A DNA stretch of 64,000 nt from Syntrophus aciditrophicus SB (GTDB lineage Bacteria; Desulfobacterota; Syntrophia; Syntrophales; Syntrophaceae): positions 2,853,001 through 2,917,000 of the forward strand of contig NC_007759.1 in assembly GCF_000013405.1 (NCBI RefSeq). The letters are read 5' to 3'. Of the stretch, positions 35,618 to 48,871 are shown one piece after another. The notes beneath the pieces are model-generated. The model did no database searches. It saw nothing but the letters and a program-made list of their open reading frames with translations, and had not been told where the DNA came from. Position numbers and translations under genes: made by a program. The stretch's first letter is position 1. Each line of letters starts with the position of its first letter.

Positions 35618-37927
35618 TTAGCGCCCCCCTTTACCATCGGAGATGTCATGCTGAATATACTGAAAGGAAGGTGAAATCTCGGAATATGGAATCTTAAAGT
35701 CTTCAAGGACAGCGTTTTTAATGACCCATCTGTTTTTCTTTTTTACCATGAGGACAAAGTACCCCGTCATTGGCGCTCCATTCTGAGAAACATAGAACAG
35801 AGCCGTGTCTTTCTGTTCGTTGAATCCGATCCGGGAGAGAAAAACCTCATCAGGAAAAACCGTTAAAGGCTGCTCCATGCCACGCCCCCCCTCGCGGTTG
35901 GGTTCATTGGTCTGCAGAATTTCAAGCCATGGAACCACCATTCTGTCCCTGAGTATACGGACTCTTTTGTTTTTCTCCCTGTAATCCTCCATGATGGATT
36001 TATCCAATGCACCAAAACTCTCCATGAGATGTGTCAGCGTCTGCTTGTCCGAATTCTTCCCGGCTGACGTCTCATGATAAACGTGCCGCGCTCTATAAGT
36101 ATTGGAGAAATATGGAGGAATTTCAAAACCGCGCACTTCTTCCGCACTGAAGAAATCAGCATAGACCTCGTATTCGTCATCACTGACTTCCGCGACGGGT
36201 TCAGGCTTCGAATTCAGGCTAACCATTGGTTGAAATGAACTCAGGATTTTGTCGAACACCCATTTGTTTTCCTTGAACAACGCTTCCGGCGCATCGTACA
36301 CCAGCACATAAAAACCCGTATGGGCAGGTATAACCACATATCGCTCTATTGCCTTCACGGGCTTGGCGTTCATCCCCTGAAAGGGCTGTCTGACTTTTTT
36401 TATTTCCAGCGTCTTGGCTTCCGGCCCGGTTAACGGTAAAACTTTTGCGTCCGCTCTTCGAGAACTGAAACGGGGATTCAACAGGTCATATATGAACCGT
36501 TCAGGGGTTCCGCATGCGTCCCGATGCCAGGCAACCCTCACACTCAGATATTCCAGACCCTCCTGACCCGGCGCCCGGACAGTCAATTCATATTTATTGT
36601 TTCCGCTCAGGAGGCTGGATCGCTGGATGTCATATTCTTCTCGCGGCCATCCTGCTGGAATCTGCAGGGTGAAGTGTTTACTCGACGGCGTAAATTCTTC
36701 GAAATTTATATTCTTGAGTGTGGAAGAAGCGCCGCCGTCCTTCTCACACAGCGCCACACATTCTTCTTTTGTTTCAAAGGGCACCGTTCCCTCGCACCCG
36801 CCGTAAACGAATTTCTCGCATTTTTGGGTTTCCGGATTGAAAAAGTAACGCCAGAAAATCGCTTTGCATGGCCCTGAATCGGGCTTCAACCTGCACCTTT
36901 CCTTGAGATCCTTTACATTTTCTTCCATGGGAAAAAGCCATGGACTGCCCCATGCCTCTTCCACATGCCCTATGGCATACGGAACCGCTTGACCGAAGTC
37001 TCCCAGGAGATCCTGGTCAAACTCGTAGTCCCCCTGATATCTCATCAGTTGGATGAACATGTTCTGATTTTTGGAAAATTGCCCGATACCCGGAAAAATT
37101 CCTTTCATTTCATCATTTTCAAGCTGTGACGATGTCGTGGCCCTCATTTCTTGAAATCCGAAACATCCGCCATAATAAGATTGAAGAGGTTCACAGAAAG
37201 TCCCGGGTGTAATGAGAATAAGGTCGATCATTCCAGAGCCGCCAAACGTGTTGGAAGTTTTCAGAGGATAATAGAGTTCCTTCGTTTTAAACCTGTACTG
37301 GATCGGCTCAACGAAACGGATCTGTTCGTTCACCGTGACGAAGTCGAAAACAAACCAGACAAAGCCCCGCCGGGTGTAATCACGAACGACAGCCTCGATC
37401 TTCGGATCTTCACGCTTCAGTTGCAAACCCTTCTGCCTGAGGAATTCCCTGACCCACCCATTGAATTCCGCCGCATCATTGATCCTGATCACCGTCACAT
37501 CGTGAGAGCCAAGCCGCTGATTGAACCGCATCTCTACCGCTCGCGCCGCGGCACGGCCGCCCTTGGTCTGCTCAATGAATTTCAACCCGTGCTTTTTGAT
37601 CAAATCCATTGCGGACTCGAAGGAAGCCGGTGAGGCCAACTGCACCTTTGGTTCCTCAGGAAATGGAATAAACCGGATGATGCGTGCAGATTTATCCGCC
37701 TTGAGATCCGTCCCGAGAATCAGCACTTCTTCTTCGCGGTTGTGCAGGATAATGGCTTTCTGGCTGTCTTCCGACACCTGCGCCTCTGTGGCCACAACTC
37801 TGCCCATATCCGCCTGAATCGGCGTCGGCAGGATGATCATGATCAAAAATGCAATCCATAATAGAATAATTTGCGTGGGAATGACTGACAACATGGGCAT
37901 CTGATGGCTTGTATCAGACTTTTTCAT
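35618..37927 (-). CDS. Secreted DUF2330 protein with an embedded Kunitz/BPTI domain
   Basis: A 769-residue exported protein. The signal segment is residues 16-39 (ending TPIQA). Residues 40-325 match my recollection of DUF2330 (VVATEAQVSEDSQKAIILHN, IIRFIPFPEEPKV). At 345-394 lies a Kunitz domain: Cys at 345, 354, 370, 378, 390 and 394, with GPCKA at 352-356 and FVYGGC, almost as in bovine BPTI, so the reactive-site P1 residue is Lys355. Cys spacing is 8-15-7-11-3 against 8-15-7-12-3 in BPTI. A beta-rich domain (about 410-590) and a C-terminal domain follow. It is probably periplasmic or surface-exposed. It follows a hairpin downstream of the RiPP cluster and is probably a separate transcript. 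Confidence 0.85.
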   Translation of the reverse strand: MKKSDTSHQMPMLSVIPTQIILLWIAFLIMIILPTPIQADMGRVVATEAQVSEDSQKAIILHNREEEVLILGTDLKADKSARIIRFIPFPEEPKVQLASPASFESAMDLIKKHGLKFIEQTKGGRAAARAVEMRFNQRLGSHDVTVIRINDAAEFNGWVREFLRQKGLQLKREDPKIEAVVRDYTRRGFVWFVFDFVTVNEQIRFVEPIQYRFKTKELYYPLKTSNTFGGSGMIDLILITPGTFCEPLQSYYGGCFGFQEMRATTSSQLENDEMKGIFPGIGQFSKNQNMFIQLMRYQGDYEFDQDLLGDFGQAVPYAIGHVEEAWGSPWLFPMEENVKDLKERCRLKPDSGPCKAIFWRYFFNPETQKCEKFVYGGCEGTVPFETKEECVALCEKDGGASSTLKNINFEEFTPSSKHFTLQIPAGWPREEYDIQRSSLLSGNNKYELTVRAPGQEGLEYLSVRVAWHRDACGTPERFIYDLLNPRFSSRRADAKVLPLTGPEAKTLEIKKVRQPFQGMNAKPVKAIERYVVIPAHTGFYVLVYDAPEALFKENKWVFDKILSSFQPMVSLNSKPEPVAEVSDDEYEVYADFFSAEEVRGFEIPPYFSNTYRARHVYHETSAGKNSDKQTLTHLMESFGALDKSIMEDYREKNKRVRILRDRMVVPWLEILQTNEPNREGGRGMEQPLTVFPDEVFLSRIGFNEQKDTALFYVSQNGAPMTGYFVLMVKKKNRWVIKNAVLEDFKIPYSEISPSFQYIQHDISDGKGGR

Positions 37928-38194
37928 GGAACCTCTCTGTCAAAAAGAATTATTTTGTTGCACAAATCCTCGTTTACTTACCAGCGCTGCGCCGCCCTGT
38001 TTTCGCCCAACCAGCTCATTCTGCTTATTTCCAACTTCAGGGTCCGATTTTCGATTGGACTTCGACGGTTCAGATTCTGCTGCAATTCTTAGACAAAGGA
38101 TGATGCCAAAAAGTTCCCGCAAGGCAGATCTTTCTGGGGTATGAATATCTGTGGGGTTAATGGATTCTTGTTTAAGGAAGACTCAAGCAATACG
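37928..38194. other. Spacer between DUF2330-Kunitz gene and RiPP cluster
   Basis: No ribosome-site-supported gene on either strand; presumed promoter of the DUF2330-Kunitz gene on the minus strand. Confidence 0.4.
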
Positions 38195-38245
38195 AACCGG
38201 TAAGCCGGCCGGCAAATAATGCCTGCGCAGGCCGGCTTACCGGTT
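38195..38245 (-). terminator. Large perfect hairpin ending the RiPP operon
   Basis: Perfect 16-bp inverted repeat: AACCGGTAAGCCGGCC (38195-38210) and GGCCGGCTTACCGGTT (38230-38245), 19-base loop, 13 bases beyond the stop of precursor 1. There is no T-tract, so it may act as a 3' stabiliser or an imperfect terminator. Confidence 0.65.
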
Positions 38246-38258
38246 GGTTTCTCCGTTT

Positions 38259-38561
38259 CTACTCAGCCGTGACGGTGCAGCTGTTGGCACAGATGTCGCG
38301 GCAGGTGCGATCACACTCGCCGGCACAACTGCCTGTACATCCGGTGCATCCCTGGCAGGTTTCGGAGCATCCCCCGGAGCAGGTATCGGCACAATCAGCC
38401 GCTGCCGGCTTTGGTGAAAGCTGCATCAAACTCAAGCCAAGAATGCCGAGAGTGGGAATGATGGCCTTGCCGACCGTCGTAAAAAACCCACGCCTGTCAA
38501 CCTTTTCCGTCTTGCCGTATACCGTTTCCATCTTTTTCCTGAATGAGTCCTCGCCATCCAT
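38259..38561 (-). CDS. CXXX-repeat RiPP precursor 1 with Tat signal peptide
   Basis: A 100-residue precursor. The leader has a charged N-terminus, then VDRRGFFTTVGK (twin-arginine, RRxF), a hydrophobic stretch IIPTLGILGLSL and an Ala-x-Ala signal-peptidase site in PKPAAAD directly before the first Cys. The core (about residues 57-96) has 11 Cys spaced 3-3-3-2-2-3-3-3-3-3, i.e. nearly pure CXXX repeats (CADTCSGGCSETC...), ending VTAE. It is closely similar to precursor 2. Such peptides are substrates of radical SAM maturases of the CXXX-repeat type that likely form thioether links. AAGGAG lies nine bases before the ATG. The product is unknown. Confidence 0.85.
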   Translation of the reverse strand: MDGEDSFRKKMETVYGKTEKVDRRGFFTTVGKAIIPTLGILGLSLMQLSPKPAAADCADTCSGGCSETCQGCTGCTGSCAGECDRTCRDICANSCTVTAE

Positions 38562-38669
38562 GGGAACATTCTCCTTTCGCGAAGTAAAAGCTGAAAAACA
38601 TTAGGAACTGACTTAATGAGGTCGGTCGCTGAAAATAAAAGCATCCAAAGACTTTATCTATCCGGGATT

Positions 38670-38975
38670 CTACCTTGCCGTGACGGTGCAGCTGTCAGCG
38701 CAGATGTCGTGGCAGGTGCGGTTACATGTACCGGAACAGTTGCCCGAACATCCACCAGTACACCCACGACAGGTTTCGTAACACCCCCCCGAACAGGTAT
38801 TTGCACAATCGGCCGCGGCTGGCCGCGGAGAAAGCGGCATCAAGCTCAAACCGATTATTCCGAGAGTGGGAATGATGACCTTGCCGACTTTCGCAAAAAA
38901 ACCGCGTCTGTCGACCTTTTCCGTCTTCCCGTATAATTTTTCCACCTTTTCCCCGAACGGCAGTTCATCATTCAT
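38670..38975 (-). CDS. CXXX-repeat RiPP precursor 2 with Tat signal peptide
   Basis: A 101-residue paralogue of precursor 1, sharing YGKTEKVDRRGFF and IIPTLGI(I/L)GLSLM in the leader and 11 Cys in the core. Cys spacing is 3-3-3-2-3-3-3-3-3-3, so it differs by one residue in the centre (CRGCTGGCSGNC). Leader residues are better conserved than the non-Cys core residues, as expected for a recognised leader. AAAGGAGAG lies upstream. It is 74 bases after the small accessory protein and 108 bases before precursor 1; the two are a recent tandem duplication. Confidence 0.85.
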   Translation of the reverse strand: MNDELPFGEKVEKLYGKTEKVDRRGFFAKVGKVIIPTLGIIGLSLMPLSPRPAAADCANTCSGGCYETCRGCTGGCSGNCSGTCNRTCHDICADSCTVTAR

Positions 38976-39049
38976 TTCCGGACTCTCCTTTCACGAATTC
39001 TTATTGAGGATCATAGGCCTCTGCGGGGTGTTTTTATGAAGAATACTCT

Positions 39050-39391
39050 TTATATTTTCCGCAAATATATATTGCAGGTTTCAAAATCGATTTCCCAGAT
39101 GCAGCCACTGACCCGCTCCCATTGATATCGCTGTGCACATCGGTCCCACCACTGCTGGTGCAACGTTGTCGTTTTTCCCAGGTCGGCGACGATTTTTTCG
39201 TAAAAATAGCTGTTTGTGAGAATTTCATCGCCGGACTCCACCAGCGCTTTGATGAGTTCGGTCAATCCGTTTTTGCGTTCAAAAAGTGCGGATATTTCAT
39301 CGCGCTCCCGGGGAGTCACCTTCCCGATCTTACTGCGCTCGTCTTTGCCGTTGCAGACTCCGGCCTTATCGTCCATCGTGTTCGTCCTCAA
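39050..39391 (-). CDS. CXXX-repeat peptide modification system accessory protein
   Basis: A 113-residue soluble protein with no signal. The middle reads LTELIKALVESGDEIL, then FYEKIVADLGKTTTLHQQWWDRC and a C-terminal aromatic stretch (YQWERVSGCIWEIDFETCNIYL). Length, context and this YEKIVxDLGKT...WW block fit the small CXXX repeat peptide modification system protein annotated by TIGRFAM next to such maturases; this is from memory. Its start overlaps the stop of the SPASM partner (ATGA). It may be a leader-binding adaptor comparable in role to PqqD, although I see no PqqD fold. Confidence 0.7.
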   Translation of the reverse strand: MRTNTMDDKAGVCNGKDERSKIGKVTPRERDEISALFERKNGLTELIKALVESGDEILTNSYFYEKIVADLGKTTTLHQQWWDRCAQRYQWERVSGCIWEIDFETCNIYLRKI

Positions 39392-40473
39392 TCCAGTTCT
39401 AATTTCCGCAGGATTTTCTTCTGCATCTCGTATATCTGCTGCAGGCAGTTATCGGCATCCTGCGACGTCGCGCTGACTGCTGCAGGCTCCTCCCTTTTCC
39501 AGGTCTCCCCCACGATCAGATCGAACGGATCGTCATAGGTTAGACTGGCAATGGCAGGGAACTGGTCAAACGGTCTGACCGTCCGGAGACTTTGCAGCAG
39601 AAGCCTCGAAACCTCCCGCTCGACATGTGACGCCAGACACTGCTCCCGGGAAGGCACATTGACTTCCAGTGTGGTCTTCTTGTTCAGATAGACGCAGCGT
39701 TTGCAGTGGAACGCGTCGCAGCGTGAACAGATCGGCGCACAGCCGAGATCCAGCAGCTGGTGATTGGCATGCGTTGTTTCAATAATGTCCGACCAATAAC
39801 CGACCGTATCCGCTTCATCGTCATAATAAAATGCCGGACAGATATAGGCGTTCCCGTCGGGAGCTATGGTCAGGTGTTTGATTCCGGCATCACAATTGTT
39901 CATCTGGTTCAAAAGCAGCCGGTCTGAAATGACATTGATCTCGATTTCCCTGCCGGTCCGGTAAAGCTGGGCAAGCCGGTCCGCTATTTTTTTCAATTCG
40001 CTTTGGTAAACATCCAATTGTGCGGAGGAAATAGTCTCAACTCCCACCAGGTGCAGATTCAGCCGTTTGAATTTTCCCCAAAGCGACGCGACCATGTCGG
40101 ACAGATGAGGAAGATCCGTCGGCGTGACCGACAAAACGAGGTTGCGCTCAGAATCGGCTTCGAGCTCCGAGAACCGCATGCTTTCATCCGCTTCCAGCAC
40201 CGGCACGCCATCGGGATAGATGTCCTTCAGGACCACCGGGATCATTTTGACATGTCCGATCGTGCCAATCAGGCTTTCATACTCTAGGGACAACGGGTGT
40301 CTTCCAAAGAGGAAATTGAGGAACAAGCCGTTTTCCCGGGCATATTCGACTATCTTCCCGAGGATTTCCAACGGCATGAATTCCGGTTCTGCCGAGGAAT
40401 AATAAAAAGGATTGCTGTAGTGGCAAAACGGGACTGCGCCTTTTTCCAGAATCACCAGCAGATATCTGTACAT
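39388..40473 (-). CDS. SPASM-domain partner maturase lacking the radical SAM motif (CXXX-repeat system)
   Basis: A 361-residue protein related to radical SAM/SPASM enzymes. Where CX3CX2C is expected the N-terminus reads ILEKGAVPFCHYSNPFYYSS, so the SAM cluster cannot form. The C-terminal half keeps SPASM-type Cys: GIKHLTIAPDGNAYICPAFYY (about 205-225), then CAPICSRCDAFHCKRCVY and REQC. ATG 40473 is one base after the stop of the true maturase; an in-frame TTG five codons upstream is less likely. This fits the family named CXXX repeat peptide maturase, found beside a genuine radical SAM enzyme. It probably binds auxiliary Fe-S clusters and helps in substrate handling. Confidence 0.78.
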   Translation of the reverse strand: MYRYLLVILEKGAVPFCHYSNPFYYSSAEPEFMPLEILGKIVEYARENGLFLNFLFGRHPLSLEYESLIGTIGHVKMIPVVLKDIYPDGVPVLEADESMRFSELEADSERNLVLSVTPTDLPHLSDMVASLWGKFKRLNLHLVGVETISSAQLDVYQSELKKIADRLAQLYRTGREIEINVISDRLLLNQMNNCDAGIKHLTIAPDGNAYICPAFYYDDEADTVGYWSDIIETTHANHQLLDLGCAPICSRCDAFHCKRCVYLNKKTTLEVNVPSREQCLASHVEREVSRLLLQSLRTVRPFDQFPAIASLTYDDPFDLIVGETWKREEPAAVSATSQDADNCLQQIYEMQKKILRKLELD

Positions 40474-40474
40474 G

Positions 40475-41665
40475 TCATCTCGCCTCAACAGGTCGTTCGC
40501 GGCCGAGCCTGTCCGCTAATTTTTCCCCAAAATACCGGTTTGCCCGCACCCTGGCCTTGTGCATGGCACAGGTATAAACAGCGCGCTGGTAGATGGTGTC
40601 GGTCGCCGCAAGGTCGTAATTGTTACCCTGACACCAGGCACAGCCGCTGGCGACATCGCACGCGATACATTCCTCTGGACTCTGCATGCTCCTGTTCAGC
40701 ACCAGGAAAGGCCTGACCCTGTTCATGTCGAGGCCATCGAAGCAGTTGCCGATCGATCTCGCCGGTTTATACCGCATGGAATAGGGAGCGAACCGCACGC
40801 AGGGATAAAAGACGCCGTCACCGTCAATCGCCAGCATTTTTCCGCTTCCGCACCAGTTTCCGTTGTCCGTCTTGCAGTCGAGCGGCTTTCCAATGGATTT
40901 GGAAAAAAACGAACAGTTGTGGGTGTCGTACAGATCGTTTTCGACAATGTAATCCGCCAGCTCACGCAACTGCGTCTCATAAATGATGTCATCGCCGGGT
41001 TCCCAGATGTTCTCGTTGACCAGGTTGATCGTCACATTTTTCAGGCCGAGCTGCCAGAGATGGATCACGCTTTCTTTGAGCAGCGGCAGGTCATCATGCG
41101 CGACCGTGGCTTTGGTGGACGCGTTTGGAAATTGTTTCAGCCATAACGGCACATTTTTCACGACCGCGTCATAAGACCCGCTGCCGTCAGGGAAAACCCG
41201 TTGCGCGTCATGCTTTTTTCTGGTGCCGTCGATGCTGATCGATATGCTCAGGTGGTGGGCATTCTTTCTGATAAAACGCTGCACCTTTTCAGTGCCGTAC
41301 AGGAGACCATTGGTGGAAAAACTGAACCGGTAGCTGTTGAACCAGGGATGATCCAACTCATACATCCGGCGCTTGATGTAATCGCAGATCCGGTCGATCA
41401 ATTCGATCTCAAGCAGCGGCTCACCGCCGATAAAATCCCAGATAACCGAATCTTCCCAGAACAGGGCTCGATTATGCAGGATATAGTCAACCGCCGTTCT
41501 GGCTATCGTAAACGACATTCTGTTGAATTTGTTTTTCCCGATGATGTAGCAGTAACCGCAACGCAACTGGCAATCTTCGGTGACAATAAAGGTAATCGAT
41601 TTCGCCATTCCCGATCGCCAGGTTGGCTCGTATTCCCCCATCTTTACATCGCTATAAGAGTCCAA
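40475..41665 (-). CDS. Radical SAM/SPASM peptide maturase, CXXX-repeat target type
   Basis: A 396-residue enzyme. The radical SAM cluster motif is CQLRCGYC (Cys32, Cys36, Cys39) with the GGEP motif in FIGGEPLLE (about 80). The SPASM region has CGSGKMLAIDGDGVFYPC (about 280-297) and CIACDVASGCAWCQGNNY (about 335-352), then a last Cys near 370, enough for two auxiliary clusters. Such enzymes form C-S (thioether) bonds in Cys-rich peptides. The frame starts at TTG 41665, eight bases after AAGGAG; the ATG eight codons later lacks a ribosome site. Two precursor genes lie upstream and two downstream on the same strand. Confidence 0.9.
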   Translation of the reverse strand: MDSYSDVKMGEYEPTWRSGMAKSITFIVTEDCQLRCGYCYIIGKNKFNRMSFTIARTAVDYILHNRALFWEDSVIWDFIGGEPLLEIELIDRICDYIKRRMYELDHPWFNSYRFSFSTNGLLYGTEKVQRFIRKNAHHLSISISIDGTRKKHDAQRVFPDGSGSYDAVVKNVPLWLKQFPNASTKATVAHDDLPLLKESVIHLWQLGLKNVTINLVNENIWEPGDDIIYETQLRELADYIVENDLYDTHNCSFFSKSIGKPLDCKTDNGNWCGSGKMLAIDGDGVFYPCVRFAPYSMRYKPARSIGNCFDGLDMNRVRPFLVLNRSMQSPEECIACDVASGCAWCQGNNYDLAATDTIYQRAVYTCAMHKARVRANRYFGEKLADRLGRERPVEAR

Positions 41666-41834
41666 TCACATTTCTCCTTGGAGAGGGTATGATCGGGATG
41701 GAATGGCATCGGAAGTTTTTATGCATGGCCGGGTTGATACGAATCGCCCCCGACGTGACCTGATCCCCGAGGGGGTGAAGAAAGAAAAAAGATTCCTTTG
41801 CAATGCCCTGAAGTTCCTTTATCTGCAAACACAT

Positions 41835-42212
41835 CTAAAACATATGTCCTTCGCATCCGCCTTTGCACGTTCCGTCACAGCCGCCGCAGACATGGGCACA
41901 GCCGCCGGAGCATGACGAGCCGCAATCGTCGGCGCAGGTTCTCACACAAGTGCTTCCACAGCCGCTGCTGCATCCATCTTGACAAGTGCCGTCACACCGG
42001 CCGCTGCATGAGAGGCTGCAGCTGCTGGCACACATACTGTTACAATTGGCGGATACGCTCTGCGGCCGACCCGCCAAAGTCAAACCAATAATGCCGAGCG
42101 TGGGAATAACGATTTTGCCCGCCATGGACAAGAAGCCCCGTCGATCGATATTTTCCGTTTTTTCCTCGGAGGGTCTTGCCACTGTTACATTTCCATCCTT
42201 GTCGTCTTTCAT
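41835..42212 (-). CDS. CXXX-repeat RiPP precursor 3 (17 Cys) with Tat signal peptide
   Basis: A 125-residue precursor, the longest of the four. ATG 42212 has GGGGTG six bases upstream; an in-frame GTG ten codons earlier is less likely. The leader contains ENIDRRGFLSMAGK and IPTLGIIGLTLAG, and the cleavage site SVSAN immediately precedes the first Cys. The core has 17 Cys; all but one of the intervals are exactly three residues (one is GG). Gly and Ser dominate between Cys. The core has 1.5 times the repeats of precursors 1 and 2. It is 76 bases downstream of precursor 4. Confidence 0.85.
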   Translation of the reverse strand: MKDDKDGNVTVARPSEEKTENIDRRGFLSMAGKIVIPTLGIIGLTLAGRPQSVSANCNSMCASSCSLSCSGRCDGTCQDGCSSGCGSTCVRTCADDCGSSCSGGCAHVCGGCDGTCKGGCEGHMF

Positions 42213-42288
42213 GAAACGCACCCCATTTTTATGAAGATCCACCAGGTTTTTCTTTTGCCCATGTCAATGATGATCCGGGACGATATTT

Positions 42289-42588
42289 TCAACGTCTTTC
42301 TGTCATGCCGCTGCAGGTATCTTTGCACGTGTCGGAACAGGCCCAGTGACAAGTGCCTGAGCAGGAACCCGTGCACCCTGTACAAGCGCCCTGACATCCC
42401 CCCGTACAGATGCTGTTGCAGTCTGCAGCCAAGGCTCTTGCCCCGGACATTGAAAGGCTTATCCCCAAAAGTCCAAGGGTAGGAACGATGATCCTCGCTG
42501 CCGTGATCAGAAACTCGCGCCGGTCTTTCTTTCCATCGTCTGTAAGGGCAGAATTTATCTCAGGTTTTTTATAAGAATCCGTCTTCAT
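42289..42588 (-). CDS. CXXX-repeat RiPP precursor 4 (10 Cys) with Tat signal peptide
   Basis: A 99-residue precursor and the first gene of the cluster. ATG 42588 follows AGGGAGGCAAC; 24 upstream in-frame codons have no start signal. The leader carries KKDRREFLITAAR (RRxFL) and IIVPTLGLLGISLS, and the site ARALAAD lies directly before the first Cys. The core has 10 Cys spaced 3-3-3-2-3-3-3-3-3 (CNSICTGGCQGACTGC...), and the tail is SGMTERR. It shares the PTLG(I/L)(I/L)G leader block with the other three. A 6-bp-arm palindrome lies just upstream of its ribosome site. Confidence 0.85.
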   Translation of the reverse strand: MKTDSYKKPEINSALTDDGKKDRREFLITAARIIVPTLGLLGISLSMSGARALAADCNSICTGGCQGACTGCTGSCSGTCHWACSDTCKDTCSGMTERR

Positions 42589-42820: not shown

Positions 42821-45800
42821 TTACCGGAACTCGATTTTGTAAAAGATGTCCGCGCCGCTCACGGTTCCGCCGTGTGTTTCCACCTCCCACTTTTCGGAAA
42901 ATTTGTATCGCAGCTTGACGACGCTCTGCTCCGAAAAGAGGTAGCGACCGAAACTGACATAAAGCCTGGGGGTCAGATACTTGCCGATGGAGACCATGGA
43001 ACCGGCCATCAGACCGTTCTGCGTCGCCGCCGTGCCGGGCTGGCCCGCAACAGCCGACGTATCCCTGGTGAATTTGACTTCCACGCCTTCAAGTCCCAGT
43101 CGGCTCTTCAGCTGGGAGATAACGGAAGGAGATTCGGATTTCGTCAGAATGGAGCCGGCCGCGCGCAGCAGCAGGGACAGATCCGGTTCGTTTCCCTCTC
43201 CCTGAAGGGCGCGGCCGAGCACGAGATAGGAAAGAATTTCCGGCTCCTGCATGGCAGGACGGGAGTAGAGGCGGATGCGGGGCGAAGAGATCGTCCCGCC
43301 GACAAACACTCCCGCCGTGACATCCTCGACCTTGCGGGCGGCGGTGATATCGAGTTGCGGGGTGTCGGCCGGCCCGGCAAAGATGATGCGGCCGCTCTCC
43401 ACCTTCAATGTTACACCGTACACACTGTAACTGCCATCCACGATCCGGACAGTCCCCTGCGCCCTGATATTTTCCGGGCCCGTCGCCGCGGTTGCAACCG
43501 TTCCGCCAAGCTGGAGATTGGCGCCGTCGGCCTTGACGCGAACATCGTCACCAAGAATGACGGCAACCCGGACATCGAGAGCGAAGGGCATCTTTCTTCC
43601 CCTTGAGGGCGGCGCATCCACGACAACCACGTCCCTGCTCGGCGTGATCACGGACGGCCCCTGTCCTGCAAGAGCCAGCATCCGGGGCACCGAAACGCTG
43701 CCGCGCACGGCCAGTTTTTCCAGATTGCCTTCAAAACGGAGATCGGGACTTGTCAGCAACTGCAATTCCGGCAGATTGACGGTCTGAAACCGGTCTCCCT
43801 TGACTGTACCGGAATAGGATGACACCTGGCTGCCACTCAAGACGATTTCCGCCTGAAGGTCGATGCTGCCGGGGCCGGAATTCGCCCTCAGGGAATCGAT
43901 CAGGATCTTTGTCCCCTCCATGCGCGCCTTCAAGCTCACATCCTTCAGCTCGATCCCGGCGGCCGGGAGGTAGGCCCCCGCTTTCGCCATGTCGACACGC
44001 CCCTCCACCCTGGGATCGCCCCAGGCGCCGCCGACCGTGACGGCGAGATCGAGTTCCCCCTTCCCCACTTCGACAAATCCCGGAAAGGCGGCATTCAGCA
44101 TGCCCGCTTCCCGGAGTCGGCCGCGGATCGATGCGGCCACGGTTCCCGACGGGTCCGGGACGACGGGAATCCGCGCCGGAAGAGGAATTCTGAAAGCCGC
44201 CTGCAGGCTGCCGTAATCGACAAACTCAGCGCTCGCCCTGCCTCTCAGATCAGCGTCCCTCCAGGAAAAGTCAACGGCGGCGCTCCGAAATCCGATGGAA
44301 ATCTGCCCCTCTTCGTCCTTCCGGGTTGCCGATCCCGATAAGACATTCAACTTTCCGGACAGTTCAAAGGCGCTGCCGGGCAGCAGCCTCCCCTCGACTT
44401 TACCCGCCGCGCGGCCGGCAACCGTTACGCCGGAAGGCAGCCAGGCATGGAACAGGCCAGGATCGAGATCCCGGACATCCATTTCGAATTTCCCCTGGTC
44501 GGGAAGAGCCAGGCGAACGGGAGCCGGTGAAGAGGCACGTCCGTTAATCACCCCTTCGCCCGCAAGGGAAACTTCCAGCCGAGCGTCCAACCCTTCCCGT
44601 CCCCAATTAAGCAAAGCCTCCGCCCGGTTGAAGGAAACGGGCCGCCCCCCGATTGCAGCCTTCCCCGAGGAGCTGAATTTGCCGGCAAGGAGAGCCACAT
44701 CTCCTCGGGCAAAACGGGTTTCCAGATTTCCCGATGTCTTCCCGGAAAGACCGCTATCGGGAATCCAGGAGGAAATGCGCTCCAGCCGGATTCCAGCCCA
44801 GGAGGCGTTCAGACGTCCCTGCAGGGGATTCAGAAACATATCCGCCGCCAGGTCCAGACGCTCCCCGGCGTTGCCGGCGAGAACCAGAGGGGAGACGGAT
44901 ACGGCACGCCGGGAGATCATCAGCTCAGCCGGCGACAGGAGCCGCCAGGGGCCGGATCTGTCCCGGCCGGAGAGTTTTTCGATCGTTCCCCGCCATGTCC
45001 CGGACGCGTAGGAACCGGCAAGAGAGGCATCCGCCGTTGCCCGCGGCGCCCGCGCTTCTATGGAAATCCGGTGGCGCGAAAGGGCGCCCCGCGCCCGCAC
45101 GACAGCGGCAGAGAGCTCGACCGAATCGTACCTCAGGCTCTTTGCGTTCACAGCCGCATCCAGCAGCCGGTCTTTTTCCGCGGCGAGCGTCATCCGGTAG
45201 GAAAGGGAATCGGCCGCGAAGCGGTCAACCGAAACATTTCTCCCGCTTCCTTCCGCGGAAAACGCGGTCAGCCCGTCCCGCAGGCGGACCCAGCCCTGGG
45301 CGGATAGCCGTCCCCGGGCGGAAGGAATCAGTTCCCCGAGATCGCCAGCGGCAGCACGGAAGTCGATCCGTTCTTTCAGCGCCCCGGAAGCGCGCACGGC
45401 GAACTGCCGCCCCCTGACATCCAGTAGAGCGATATCGAGATCATCGCCGCGCAGGCGCACGTCCGCTTCGCCCGTAAGATCTCTGCCGAGCAGTTGACTG
45501 CGTGATATCCAGGCCTGGACGCGGGCATCGGGGGGCGCATCCGCTTTCATGCCGAGCTGTCCGCGGGCCGTTACATTCAACGCCCCTTTCCATTGGGGAT
45601 CGAATACCGCCGGATTCAAACCGGTTCCTTCCACCGCTGCCGTCAGGCGCACGCCTTCTTTCCAGTTGACCGCGACGTCGCCCGAAACGCGTCCGGCCAG
45701 CCATTTCCCTTCCGAAAGCGTCAGTTTGAGCCTCTCCAGGTCGCCGCCAAAGGACCCTCTGAGGACAGTCGAAGCCCACGTTTTCCCCGTGTTGGTCAGA

Positions 45801-46798
45801 GAATACGACCCTGTGTAATCCGTGGGAACGCCCTTCAGATCGATCTCACCGCTGATGTCCGTGGGAAAGGAAATTTCCGGGGAAAGATCGAGATGGGACG
45901 CCTTCACCCGAATACTGTAAAATGGCTCTCCTTCCGGAAACGTCACGACGGCGCTGCCAGCCATATCTCCTTTCAGTCCGGGCCTGAGCAGACGGACATC
46001 CCTCAGATGGACGGAATGTTTCGCCAGCCCAATGATGCCCGTCAATCCCGTCTTTCTGCCGCCGATGTCAGCGGCTGTGAGAGAGACTTCCCCAGCGATC
46101 GGCTCGGGGGCCGCGGTTTTCCTCAAGCCGGCTTTCAAGGAAAATTTCCCGACACCGTCCCCACCCCCGCTTTGCAGGTCAAGGGCCGTTTCCAGATTCA
46201 GAAAGGGGATGATAAAGCCCGCCGAAGCGTCCCCGCGAAGCTCCCCCCAGGGAGACTTGATGCGGATATTTTTCAAATCGAGGATGCCGGCATTCCACTC
46301 CAGACTCCCCTGAATGCGGTCGATCCGGACCGGCGGCTCTTCAAGTCGGCGGTATTCGATATTGCTGATGTCGAGAGAAGCGATTCCGCCTCTCAGGGAA
46401 CCGAGAAAGCCCGGTACGGAAGGCCAGCTCAAGTCCGGCGGCTCTTTCTCTTCCGGCCTCCGGTCGTGCACGGCGACGCCCTCCATCCGCAATTCTTCCA
46501 CAGACAGGAAGCCCGCCGGAAGCGATCGAGGGGAAGGCTTGATGAAGATGGAGGAGATCCGCGCATCGAAGGATTCTGTGGACAGCTCCAGGTTTCGAAG
46601 CGCCAGACCGTCCATCAGGTTGCCCTCGGAGCGCCCGATTTTCATCTGAACGCCGGCCTGGCTTCCGAGAAATTTCAACAGCCGGAGGGACCCCTCGGGT
46701 GTTTTCAGAACATGATAGAGCGCTGCCGACAGGAGCAGAACGACCAGCAGAATCCCCGCGAGAAAGAACAGGCCGTATTTGACTCTTTTTGACGTCAC
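42821..46798 (-). CDS. tamB: Translocation and assembly module subunit TamB (AsmA-like, DUF490)
   Basis: A 1325-residue inner-membrane-anchored periplasmic protein. One N-terminal membrane segment (about 8-30, LFFLAGILLVVLLLSAALYHVL) is followed by about 1000 residues of repetitive beta-strand sequence forming a lipid-transporting groove (many GxLxLxG-type strands). The C-terminal DUF490 domain has SGRIIFAGPADTPQLDITAAR and ends SGADIFYKIEFR, typical of TamB. It spans the periplasm and works with the TamA barrel in phospholipid transport or autotransporter insertion. Its ATG overlaps the tamA stop. The RiPP cluster begins 232 bases downstream on the same strand; co-transcription is possible but unproven. 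Confidence 0.93.
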   Translation of the reverse strand: MTSKRVKYGLFFLAGILLVVLLLSAALYHVLKTPEGSLRLLKFLGSQAGVQMKIGRSEGNLMDGLALRNLELSTESFDARISSIFIKPSPRSLPAGFLSVEELRMEGVAVHDRRPEEKEPPDLSWPSVPGFLGSLRGGIASLDISNIEYRRLEEPPVRIDRIQGSLEWNAGILDLKNIRIKSPWGELRGDASAGFIIPFLNLETALDLQSGGGDGVGKFSLKAGLRKTAAPEPIAGEVSLTAADIGGRKTGLTGIIGLAKHSVHLRDVRLLRPGLKGDMAGSAVVTFPEGEPFYSIRVKASHLDLSPEISFPTDISGEIDLKGVPTDYTGSYSLTNTGKTWASTVLRGSFGGDLERLKLTLSEGKWLAGRVSGDVAVNWKEGVRLTAAVEGTGLNPAVFDPQWKGALNVTARGQLGMKADAPPDARVQAWISRSQLLGRDLTGEADVRLRGDDLDIALLDVRGRQFAVRASGALKERIDFRAAAGDLGELIPSARGRLSAQGWVRLRDGLTAFSAEGSGRNVSVDRFAADSLSYRMTLAAEKDRLLDAAVNAKSLRYDSVELSAAVVRARGALSRHRISIEARAPRATADASLAGSYASGTWRGTIEKLSGRDRSGPWRLLSPAELMISRRAVSVSPLVLAGNAGERLDLAADMFLNPLQGRLNASWAGIRLERISSWIPDSGLSGKTSGNLETRFARGDVALLAGKFSSSGKAAIGGRPVSFNRAEALLNWGREGLDARLEVSLAGEGVINGRASSPAPVRLALPDQGKFEMDVRDLDPGLFHAWLPSGVTVAGRAAGKVEGRLLPGSAFELSGKLNVLSGSATRKDEEGQISIGFRSAAVDFSWRDADLRGRASAEFVDYGSLQAAFRIPLPARIPVVPDPSGTVAASIRGRLREAGMLNAAFPGFVEVGKGELDLAVTVGGAWGDPRVEGRVDMAKAGAYLPAAGIELKDVSLKARMEGTKILIDSLRANSGPGSIDLQAEIVLSGSQVSSYSGTVKGDRFQTVNLPELQLLTSPDLRFEGNLEKLAVRGSVSVPRMLALAGQGPSVITPSRDVVVVDAPPSRGRKMPFALDVRVAVILGDDVRVKADGANLQLGGTVATAATGPENIRAQGTVRIVDGSYSVYGVTLKVESGRIIFAGPADTPQLDITAARKVEDVTAGVFVGGTISSPRIRLYSRPAMQEPEILSYLVLGRALQGEGNEPDLSLLLRAAGSILTKSESPSVISQLKSRLGLEGVEVKFTRDTSAVAGQPGTAATQNGLMAGSMVSIGKYLTPRLYVSFGRYLFSEQSVVKLRYKFSEKWEVETHGGTVSGADIFYKIEFR

Positions 46799-48576
46799 AA
46801 TTGAAACCCCAGAGAGAAATGGATGCGGTAATCAGAATCGGGATAGTCGATCGGATGAGCGACATCCAGCCGGATAGCTCCGACGGGTGTATAATACCGG
46901 ACTCCGATGCCGACGCTGCGATAAAGTTCCAGATCCGACAGATTGTTGAAGGCGTTTCCCGTATCGTAAAAGACCGCCGCGCTGAAATTCTTCGGGAAAG
47001 CCTTTTCCAGCTCGACACTTCCGACGATCAGATTCTTGCCTCCGACGACCGTACCTGTCGAGTCCGTCGGTCCGAGAGAGTTATAAGAGAAGCCGCGCAC
47101 GCTGTTGTCGCCACCGGTGAAAAAACGCAGGGACGCGGGCATGTCGCTGAGGGGATCTTTTTCATACGACGCGGCTCCCTGCGCACGGAACGTCGCCATA
47201 AGATTCCAGGGCAGGGGCAGCAGGTATCTTCCGTTGGCCAGCACCTGCGCAACTCCGACGTCGGAGCCGAGAAACGCATCCGTTCCTCTCAGTTCGAGAG
47301 CATAGTTGTAGCCTCTTCGGGGACGGATCAGATTGTCGTAACGCTGCCTTGAATAACGAACACCAGGCAGGACAAGGGTAGCGCTTACATCCTGCTCCCC
47401 CACCTCCGAATCTTCCCTCTGCAGGCGGAGATAGGCCGTACCGAGCCTCCCCCTTCCGAAATCCCAGGTCCGGTTTGCTTCGAGGGATGCAAACCGGCTC
47501 GTGTAGGAGGAAATGTCCTCATTCTGAAGTCTGAATTGAAAACCCGTAAAGCTTTCTATCCGACGTCCCGGCAGTCGAAAATCGGCGACAAACGCCTGAA
47601 GACGCTCAGAGACGACCAGGTCGGCGGAAAGCTCCCGTCCTTCTCCCGAAATGTTCAAATCCCGGTAGTGGGCGGAAGCCCGAGGACCTGTATCCGTTCC
47701 GTATCCGATCCCGAACCGAAGCCGTTTTGGGAGGGAAGGTTCCAGTCGGATTGTTATGGGAACCATGAAATTTTCCGCTGTTTCCTTGTCCGGCTCGACA
47801 ACGGCTTCCCGGAAGCGCTCGGAATTGATGAAATTCAGCTGGGTCCGATAGATTCTATTATAGGAAAAAGGCTCGCCTTTCCTGAAGGCCACATGCCTTC
47901 GAAGAAAGGTGTCGCTGTAAGCCTCTCCCCCCAGGATTTTCCAGTCGCCGAAAGCATAAAAGGGCCCCGTATCGAGAAGGAGTTCGATCCGGGCGGAATA
48001 ATCCCGAAGGGAAACTTCAACCCGGCTGACGGAGAAGTCCGCATCGAGATAGCCCCGGGCCAATGCGGCCTCTCGGAGCTGTGTCTTGCCCGCTTCGTAG
48101 GCCGTATGGTCGAAAACATCTCCTTTTTTCAGGGGAAAGGAGTCGACGGCCCTGTTCATACGGTTTTCCTTCGCCCCAGGCCCCTCGATCGCGAGACTCA
48201 CGTCCGCCACGAGAGTTGGCCGGCCGGGGGAAACATCCACTATGACGACGTAACCGTCCGTCGTCTTTTCGATCCGGGTTTTTGTGCGGACATCGTAATG
48301 GCCGAAGGGTTCCAGCGCGCGTTTCACCTTCTCCGGAACCTGCTTTTCAAACCGTTCCAGCCAGGGCATATTGACGTCTCCGTTACGAACAATACCGGAA
48401 GGAAGATCCAGAGCTGCCCGAACGTTGTCCAGCTTTTCGCCTTCGATCCCGGTTACGGCGACCTCAACGGGAGACGGCGCGGCGCCTGCGGAATAATTGA
48501 AGGCAAAAAGAATCACCGCCGACAGGATGACGGCACAGAAATTCTTCCATGGAACTCGGACGGGCGTTTTCTTCAT
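46795..48576 (-). CDS. tamA: Outer-membrane assembly factor TamA (BamA/Omp85 family)
   Basis: A 593-residue outer-membrane barrel protein. I chose ATG 48576, which gives a clean signal peptide (MKKTPVRVPWKNF, hydrophobic core, cleavage near SAGAAPS). POTRA domains occupy about residues 28-265 (VEVAVTGIEGEKLDNVRAAL, then FSVSRVEVSLRDYSARIELL). The C-terminal 16-strand barrel has RFGIGYGTDTGPRASAHYRDLN and the Omp85 substrate-lock block FFTGGDNSVRGFSYNSLGP (about 470). It ends in HFSLGFQL with aromatic-polar alternation. It forms the TAM complex with tamB, which follows with a four-base overlap. Confidence 0.94.
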   Translation of the reverse strand: MKKTPVRVPWKNFCAVILSAVILFAFNYSAGAAPSPVEVAVTGIEGEKLDNVRAALDLPSGIVRNGDVNMPWLERFEKQVPEKVKRALEPFGHYDVRTKTRIEKTTDGYVVIVDVSPGRPTLVADVSLAIEGPGAKENRMNRAVDSFPLKKGDVFDHTAYEAGKTQLREAALARGYLDADFSVSRVEVSLRDYSARIELLLDTGPFYAFGDWKILGGEAYSDTFLRRHVAFRKGEPFSYNRIYRTQLNFINSERFREAVVEPDKETAENFMVPITIRLEPSLPKRLRFGIGYGTDTGPRASAHYRDLNISGEGRELSADLVVSERLQAFVADFRLPGRRIESFTGFQFRLQNEDISSYTSRFASLEANRTWDFGRGRLGTAYLRLQREDSEVGEQDVSATLVLPGVRYSRQRYDNLIRPRRGYNYALELRGTDAFLGSDVGVAQVLANGRYLLPLPWNLMATFRAQGAASYEKDPLSDMPASLRFFTGGDNSVRGFSYNSLGPTDSTGTVVGGKNLIVGSVELEKAFPKNFSAAVFYDTGNAFNNLSDLELYRSVGIGVRYYTPVGAIRLDVAHPIDYPDSDYRIHFSLGFQL

Positions 48577-48871
48577 GAGGTCACAATTCCCGGTCAAAAC
48601 GATATTTGGCGCCTGTTAAAAAATCCTCTTTTTCGCGGACAGCGTTTCCGCTTCAAAATCAAGATTCATCCCGGTAAAGCCCAAAAATAACGCAAGGCCG
48701 CTTGTGAAATCAACAGAATGGAGAATGAAAGGCCGACCGATAATGTTCCGCTGCCGGTGATGACCGGAGAAATCAATCCTGTCGGCCTTCTTTTTGAAGA
48801 TATACAGATGAGCTGATTTGCGCAAAGGAATATTCCGATGAAGTTCTGCAGACACCCACGACGCATTCGAC

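Follow-up and report, generated by a model that had tools for sequence, protein, structure and literature searches.

We describe here a cluster of seven genes in Syntrophus aciditrophicus SB that encodes four cysteine-rich precursor peptides together with three proteins predicted to modify them, in the manner of a ribosomally synthesized and post-translationally modified peptide (RiPP) system. It lies on contig NC_007759.1 in the stretch from 2,853,001 to 2,917,000, the 64,000 nucleotides of which were analysed as a whole (the window; positions below are window positions). All seven genes are on the minus strand and run from 42588 down to 38259 in the order precursor 4, precursor 3, radical SAM enzyme, SPASM partner, small protein, precursor 2 and precursor 1, with the three maturase genes overlapping or abutting. 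An earlier interpretation made without database searches (the sequence-only reading) had proposed just such a one-strand cluster, with the precursors flanking the radical SAM/SPASM enzyme, its SPASM partner and a small protein, and this arrangement stands. The features are listed here in the order of reading, where Tat denotes twin-arginine translocation and bit scores refer to NCBIfam models.

42424..42588, minus strand: precursor 4, Tat-type leader/signal peptide, residues 1-55, with RREFL at residues 23-27 (gene matches TIGR04117 at 139 bits)
42289..42423, minus strand: precursor 4, cysteine-ladder core with 10 cysteines, stop codon included
42048..42212, minus strand: precursor 3, Tat-type leader/signal peptide with RRGFL (gene matches TIGR04117 at 137 bits)
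41835..42047, minus strand: precursor 3, cysteine-ladder core with 17 cysteines, stop codon included
40475..41665, minus strand: radical SAM/SPASM peptide maturase of the CXXX-repeat target family (TIGR04115, 706 bits, cut-off 350)
39388..40488, minus strand: SPASM partner, a CXXX repeat peptide maturase without a CX3CX2C motif (TIGR04119, 279 bits, cut-off 150)
39050..39391, minus strand: small protein, CXXX repeat peptide modification system protein (TIGR04116, 112 bits, cut-off 50)
38811..38975, minus strand: precursor 2, Tat-type leader/signal peptide with RRGFF (gene matches TIGR04117 at 163 bits)
38670..38810, minus strand: precursor 2, cysteine-ladder core with 11 cysteines, stop codon included
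38397..38561, minus strand: precursor 1, Tat-type leader/signal peptide with RRGFF (gene matches TIGR04117 at 155 bits)
38259..38396, minus strand: precursor 1, cysteine-ladder core with 11 cysteines, stop codon included
38192..38248, strand not applicable: inverted repeat with 22-nt arms (91%) and no clear T run, directly after precursor 1

The open reading frame of precursor 4 reaches 42660, and the internal ATG at 42588 is its likely start. Precursor 3 probably begins at the ATG at 42212, although a GTG at 42242 is also possible, and the SPASM partner probably begins at the ATG at 40473. The inverted repeat at 38192..38248 is a possible transcript end, to judge by its sequence.

All seven genes score above the cut-offs of NCBIfam models for the CXXX-repeat system, the four precursors with TIGR04117 (137-163 bits; all four also exceed the cut-off of TIGR04114) and the maturation proteins with TIGR04115 (exact score 705.8 bits, cut-off 350), TIGR04119 (278.7, cut-off 150) and TIGR04116 (111.6, cut-off 50). 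The sequence-only reading had pointed to a CXXX-repeat system with these three types of maturation protein, and the model searches bear it out. Because NCBIfam assigns every gene above cut-off, the cluster is by sequence of a known, annotated kind, but the models name the parts only, and neither the division between Tat and ATP-binding cassette (ABC) export described below nor the spread over phyla appears in the descriptions retrieved. By its name (Syntroph_Cxxx), TIGR04117 was probably built from the paralogues of this genome, and the cluster may be its founding example. None of TIGR04114, TIGR04115, TIGR04116, TIGR04117 and TIGR04119 is mentioned in any paper of the literature searched, in which we also found no experimental work on the CXXX-repeat system. 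The rest of the genome contains no second TIGR04117 locus and no second TIGR04115 match above the cut-off. A further radical SAM protein of this genome (L002:1153-2586), which scores 88.9 bits with TIGR04115, sits downstream of a transposase-like open reading frame and is followed by a 97-residue protein, and possibly represents a separate peptide-modification locus.

The cores of precursors 1 to 4 contain 11, 11, 17 and 10 cysteines respectively, as anticipated from inspection of the sequence (10-17 cysteines at three-residue gaps), and successive cysteines form CxxxC steps in 8 of 10, 9 of 10, 15 of 16 and 8 of 9 instances, counts reached by none of 100,000 shuffles of the cores. The core consensus is C-x-G-(T/S). 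The leaders carry VDRRGFF in precursors 1 and 2, IDRRGFL in precursor 3 and KDRREFL in precursor 4, followed in each case by (I/V)PTLG(I/L)(I/L)G, in agreement with the RRxF(F/L) and PTLG(I/L)(I/L)G elements noted earlier, and they end in PAAA/D, PAAA/D, SVSA/N and ALAA/D, where the slash marks the predicted cleavage point. With the ATG starts at 42212 and 42588 for precursors 3 and 4, the first core cysteine is residue 57 in all four. The Ala-x-Ala-type site had been placed directly ahead of this cysteine; the site is present, but a single Asp or Asn intervenes. A lipoprotein signal was considered for these precursors and rejected, because Asp or Asn precedes the cysteine and a lipobox is lacking. 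Comparison of precursors 1 and 2 gives a nonsynonymous divergence (dN) of ~0.14 in both leader and core and a synonymous divergence (dS) of ~1.0 in the leader and ~1.1 in the core; purifying selection acts on both parts of these two genes, and the precursor genes look real because dN is far below dS. The Arg-Arg codon pairs differ across all four paralogues, with the residues unchanged.

To place these leaders in context we used a search for homologues in one genome per species for 84,980 species, in a plasmid collection and in a sampling of several classes. True maturase homologues, 48-65% identical, are found in Negativicutes, Planctomycetota (Thermoguttaceae), Bacteroidota and the Gram-positive Clostridia/Tissierellia. 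A further 154 genomes from the class of the window and 394 from its phylum yielded none, which makes it likely that the cluster was acquired horizontally. Viral contigs yielded one truncated maturase homologue and no homologue of the small protein. The three-part module is constant wherever the flanking sequence suffices, with the radical SAM enzyme and its partner fused in Gram-positives and planctomycetes and encoded by separate genes in the window.

Fifteen precursors from nine clusters, the window's and eight from Negativicutes, Planctomycetota and Bacteroidota, constitute an RR-type set that spans four phyla. Each of the 15 combines RRxF(F/L/I/M) with a hydrophobic stretch and a conserved Pro; the pattern RR.[FGAVML][LITMVF] is present in every one, as against 0.2-8% of shuffled versions of each leader, and the motif [ILV]P.[LI] follows 12-19 residues further on in all 15. 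The Pro of the h-region was considered as a hallmark and found to be only weakly distinctive, because two other Tat-like proteins of the genome share the hydrophobic-Pro-x-hydrophobic motif. No RR block is found in the leaders of the Gram-positive homologues, which are short and of LFSxKKI or YSSKI type. The hydrophobic stretch in every RR-type precursor could also be an uncleaved membrane anchor, with the ladder peptide displayed at the membrane and not released, but we consider this quite improbable given that Ala-x-Ala-type sites follow the block in the window precursors and that its hydrophobicity there is modest (best 12-residue Kyte-Doolittle mean ~2.1).

The distribution of export machinery follows the leader type. 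The window's genome encodes TatC (PF00902, E 2.2e-75), as do all nine genomes with RR precursors, compared with 1 of 12 genomes without them (Fisher 3e-5; genome G539, with no precursor on its contig, was left out of this count), and an ABC exporter is nearby in 7 of 8 Gram-positive, non-RR modules and in none of 9 RR modules (Fisher 4e-4), although these Fisher values overstate the evidence because the maturase tree shows a single change in the RR trait, which leaves the co-occurrence tests phylogenetically non-independent, and because TatC presence tracks diderm versus monoderm lineages. RR leaders and neighbouring ABC exporters exclude one another; the one weaker ABC-type match near an RR module (L013:1179-1952) is to an ATPase of a different type. 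Three of the Gram-positive, non-RR clusters include an S8 subtilase. The RR-type maturases form a single branch (support 91/97) spanning the four phyla. The single change of the trait and the lineage dependence of TatC both count against Tat export, as do two further observations. The Clostridiaceae genome at L018 has TatC, yet its precursor has a non-RR leader and an ABC exporter accompanies it; and the generic Tat hidden Markov models (HMMs) TIGR01409 and PF10518 stay below cut-off, with no match to the window precursors and best scores in relatives of 15.5 bits against a cut-off of 16.7 and 19.5 bits against a cut-off of 22.7, a failure that weighs little because the two models, at 29 and 21 positions, are very short. 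The pattern of TatC and ABC genes fits the predicted swap of Tat for ABC export but, being confounded in part with the type of cell envelope and with shared descent, is not independent proof of it. The Tat targeting put forward in the sequence-only reading can be upheld to this extent: the RR motif, TatC and the ABC contrast lend it strong comparative support at the level of sequence, and the generic Tat HMMs do not recognise the leaders.

Basic residues in the c-region disfavour export by the general secretory (Sec) pathway, and all four window leaders have a Lys or Arg there. The Sec pathway nonetheless has to be weighed as the alternative route, with the twin arginine either incidental or part of a leader read by the maturase. 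Its attractions are the failure of the generic Tat HMMs and the precedent of the bufferins, RiPPs whose precursors bear Sec signal peptides (PMC12452194); moreover, in most of the pairs compared no other part of the leader is as conserved as the twin-arginine and hydrophobic (RR-h) block, as would be expected of a recognition motif. We regard Sec export as unlikely, however, since RR-x-F-hydrophobic is kept in 15 of 15 precursors over four phyla with synonymous codon differences, the c-regions of the window leaders are basic, TatC co-occurs with RR precursors, and the Gram-positive relatives manage with the same maturase and no RR block.

The nature of the modification is suggested by the relationships of the maturase. 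It has a CX3CX2C motif at residues 32-39 and SPASM-type cysteines at positions 272, 289, 333, 336, 342, 345 and 366, and its nearest solved structure by sequence is CteB, the SCIFF maturase (5wgg, E 1.9e-27), the entry title of which refers to thioether bond formation. Fold comparison agrees, with Z 22 over 321 residues for a model of the relative at L013; only the radical SAM half of this fused-maturase model was compared because its mean pLDDT is 65. Neither of the related family models is reached: PapB of the ranthipeptides, the nearest other NCBIfam model, gives 196 bits (cut-off 340), and the SCIFF model gives 118 bits (cut-off 425). PapB and CteB share with the window maturase the radical SAM/SPASM fold and cysteine-rich substrates, and because of this kinship we consider it likely, by analogy, that thioethers are formed on the cysteine ladder. 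PapB, however, joins Cys to Asp or Glu (PMC9413430), and the CXXX cores have no Asp or Glu at a fixed place, which weighs against thioether formation of that kind; PapB-type Cys-Asp chemistry is for this reason not simply transferable, and our guess is that the acceptor, if any, would be the Thr/Ser or Gly that precedes the next cysteine.

An alternative view of the product is that the peptide is exported by Tat as a thiol-rich, metal- or redox-active molecule, with some other change or few cross-links, and with most of its cysteines free to bind periplasmic metal. It overlaps the export part of the explanation that we favor and differs over the product. Up to 24 cysteines, spaced strictly by four and with X1 variable, would suit such a role, the copper-binding bufferins are exported, modified cysteine peptides that act as metal chelators (PMC12452194), and the RR clusters show no recognisable immunity gene or outer-membrane exporter. 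The maturase, though, is akin to the thioether-forming CteB and PapB, and the neighbours examined include no recognisable metal-related gene, so that we rate this as a possible but rather doubtful account.

Comparison with CteB bears on where the leader would be recognised. The radical SAM match begins at residue 92 in CteB and at about residue 20 in the window maturase, where the CteB-type N-terminal domain is missing, and because the maturase has no N-terminal extension of that size, the leader must, to judge by the sequence, be read by the radical SAM domain, by the partner or by the small protein. For the small protein AlphaFold2 predicts a strand, a long helical hairpin and a beta hairpin (mean pLDDT 88), and comparison with solved structures gave no confident match, the helical-hairpin matches to CsoR, FrmR and SerRS (Z no higher than 7.6, Foldseek E above 0.4) being background. 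No domain resembling a RiPP recognition element is among its structure matches, although these lists exclude nothing. Because of its conservation and the bufferin precedent (PMC12452194), it is plausible that the RR-h block doubles as the recognition leader of the maturase.

We therefore consider it probable that the cluster is a diderm-type CXXX-repeat RiPP system in which maturation in the cytoplasm is followed by Tat export, and we infer the following order of events. The four precursors would be translated with a Tat-type signal peptide, and their cysteine ladders would be modified while still in the cytoplasm by the radical SAM/SPASM enzyme, acting together with its SPASM partner and the small protein; thioethers that join the cysteines to residues nearby are the likeliest change. 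Thus stiffened, the peptide would leave through the Tat translocase, and signal peptidase would cleave at Ala-x-Ala, one residue ahead of the first cysteine, releasing a product of about 44-70 residues into the periplasm. In the Gram-positive relatives, usually without Tat, the same module would act on a short, non-signal leader, with a nearby ABC transporter exporting the product and in some instances a subtilase probably trimming it.

Several known systems resemble parts of this scheme. The Gram-positive CXXX RiPPs of AC3_0185 type (TIGR04118, above cut-off at L069 and L070 and just below it at L015) and related Gram-positive loci have the same three-part maturase and cysteine ladder. They differ in that their leaders are short, of LFSxKKI/YSSKI type and without RR, and in that the radical SAM enzyme is fused to its partner; most of them also have an ABC exporter, and some a subtilase. 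Bufferins likewise have cysteine-rich precursors with an N-terminal signal peptide that are modified and exported, and there is preliminary evidence that their maturase recognises the signal peptide (PMC12452194), but they use an MNIO enzyme and Sec whereas the window cluster has a radical SAM enzyme and probably Tat; Pfam and NCBIfam scans detect no MNIO (DUF692) maturase among the cluster genes. In phage-display work by Hetrick et al. (cited in PMC11048544), Tat export of nisin was reportedly engineered, and there a modified, cyclised peptide passes through Tat, although as an artificial fusion and not by a natural pathway. The statement in the sequence-only reading that no characterised RiPP follows such a logic is thus too broad as regards signal peptides, in that bufferins precede it with Sec, although we found no natural Tat-exported RiPP in the literature searched, most subscription journals lying outside it.

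RiPPs are usually exported by dedicated ABC transporters, with the Sec-dependent bufferins a recent exception, and the Tat/ABC contrast described here extends over four phyla and the Gram-positives. We tentatively advance the broader idea, somewhat short of an even prospect in our estimation, that these clusters constitute a natural RiPP class found in at least four phyla with diderm members and spread horizontally, matured in the cytoplasm by a radical SAM enzyme and exported folded by Tat, with the signal peptide (its RR-h block and conserved Pro) doubling as the recognition leader of the maturase, and a switch between Tat and ABC export that follows the host envelope. If so, Tat would provide a way out for a peptide that is stiff and cross-linked before it leaves the cytoplasm, and the preference of Tat for folded cargo could serve as a check on completed maturation. 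A single maturase module with two export solutions according to envelope type would also be a natural experiment on leader recognition and on the folding required of Tat cargo.

Some features near the cluster and its relatives are recorded here. Directly downstream on the same strand is a gene for a 769-residue, secreted-looking protein (35618-37927, minus strand) with DUF2330 and a Kunitz/BPTI domain (E 3.5e-15), the latter unusual for a bacterium, and directly upstream are TamB- and TamA-like genes (42821-48597, minus strand), for which the NCBIfam matches are strong but below cut-off. In three Negativicutes clusters (L055:12248-13198; L012 and L056) the CXXX precursor is followed by a gene for a UvdE-type UV endonuclease, and near the planctomycete module two adjacent proteins (L013:8924-10873) have weak matches to the DnaJ Cys-rich domain. 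On the Anaerococcus prevotii plasmid pAPRE01 (L009), typed as conjugative, a Gram-positive CXXX module adjoins an ABC exporter and a class III lanthionine synthetase gene.

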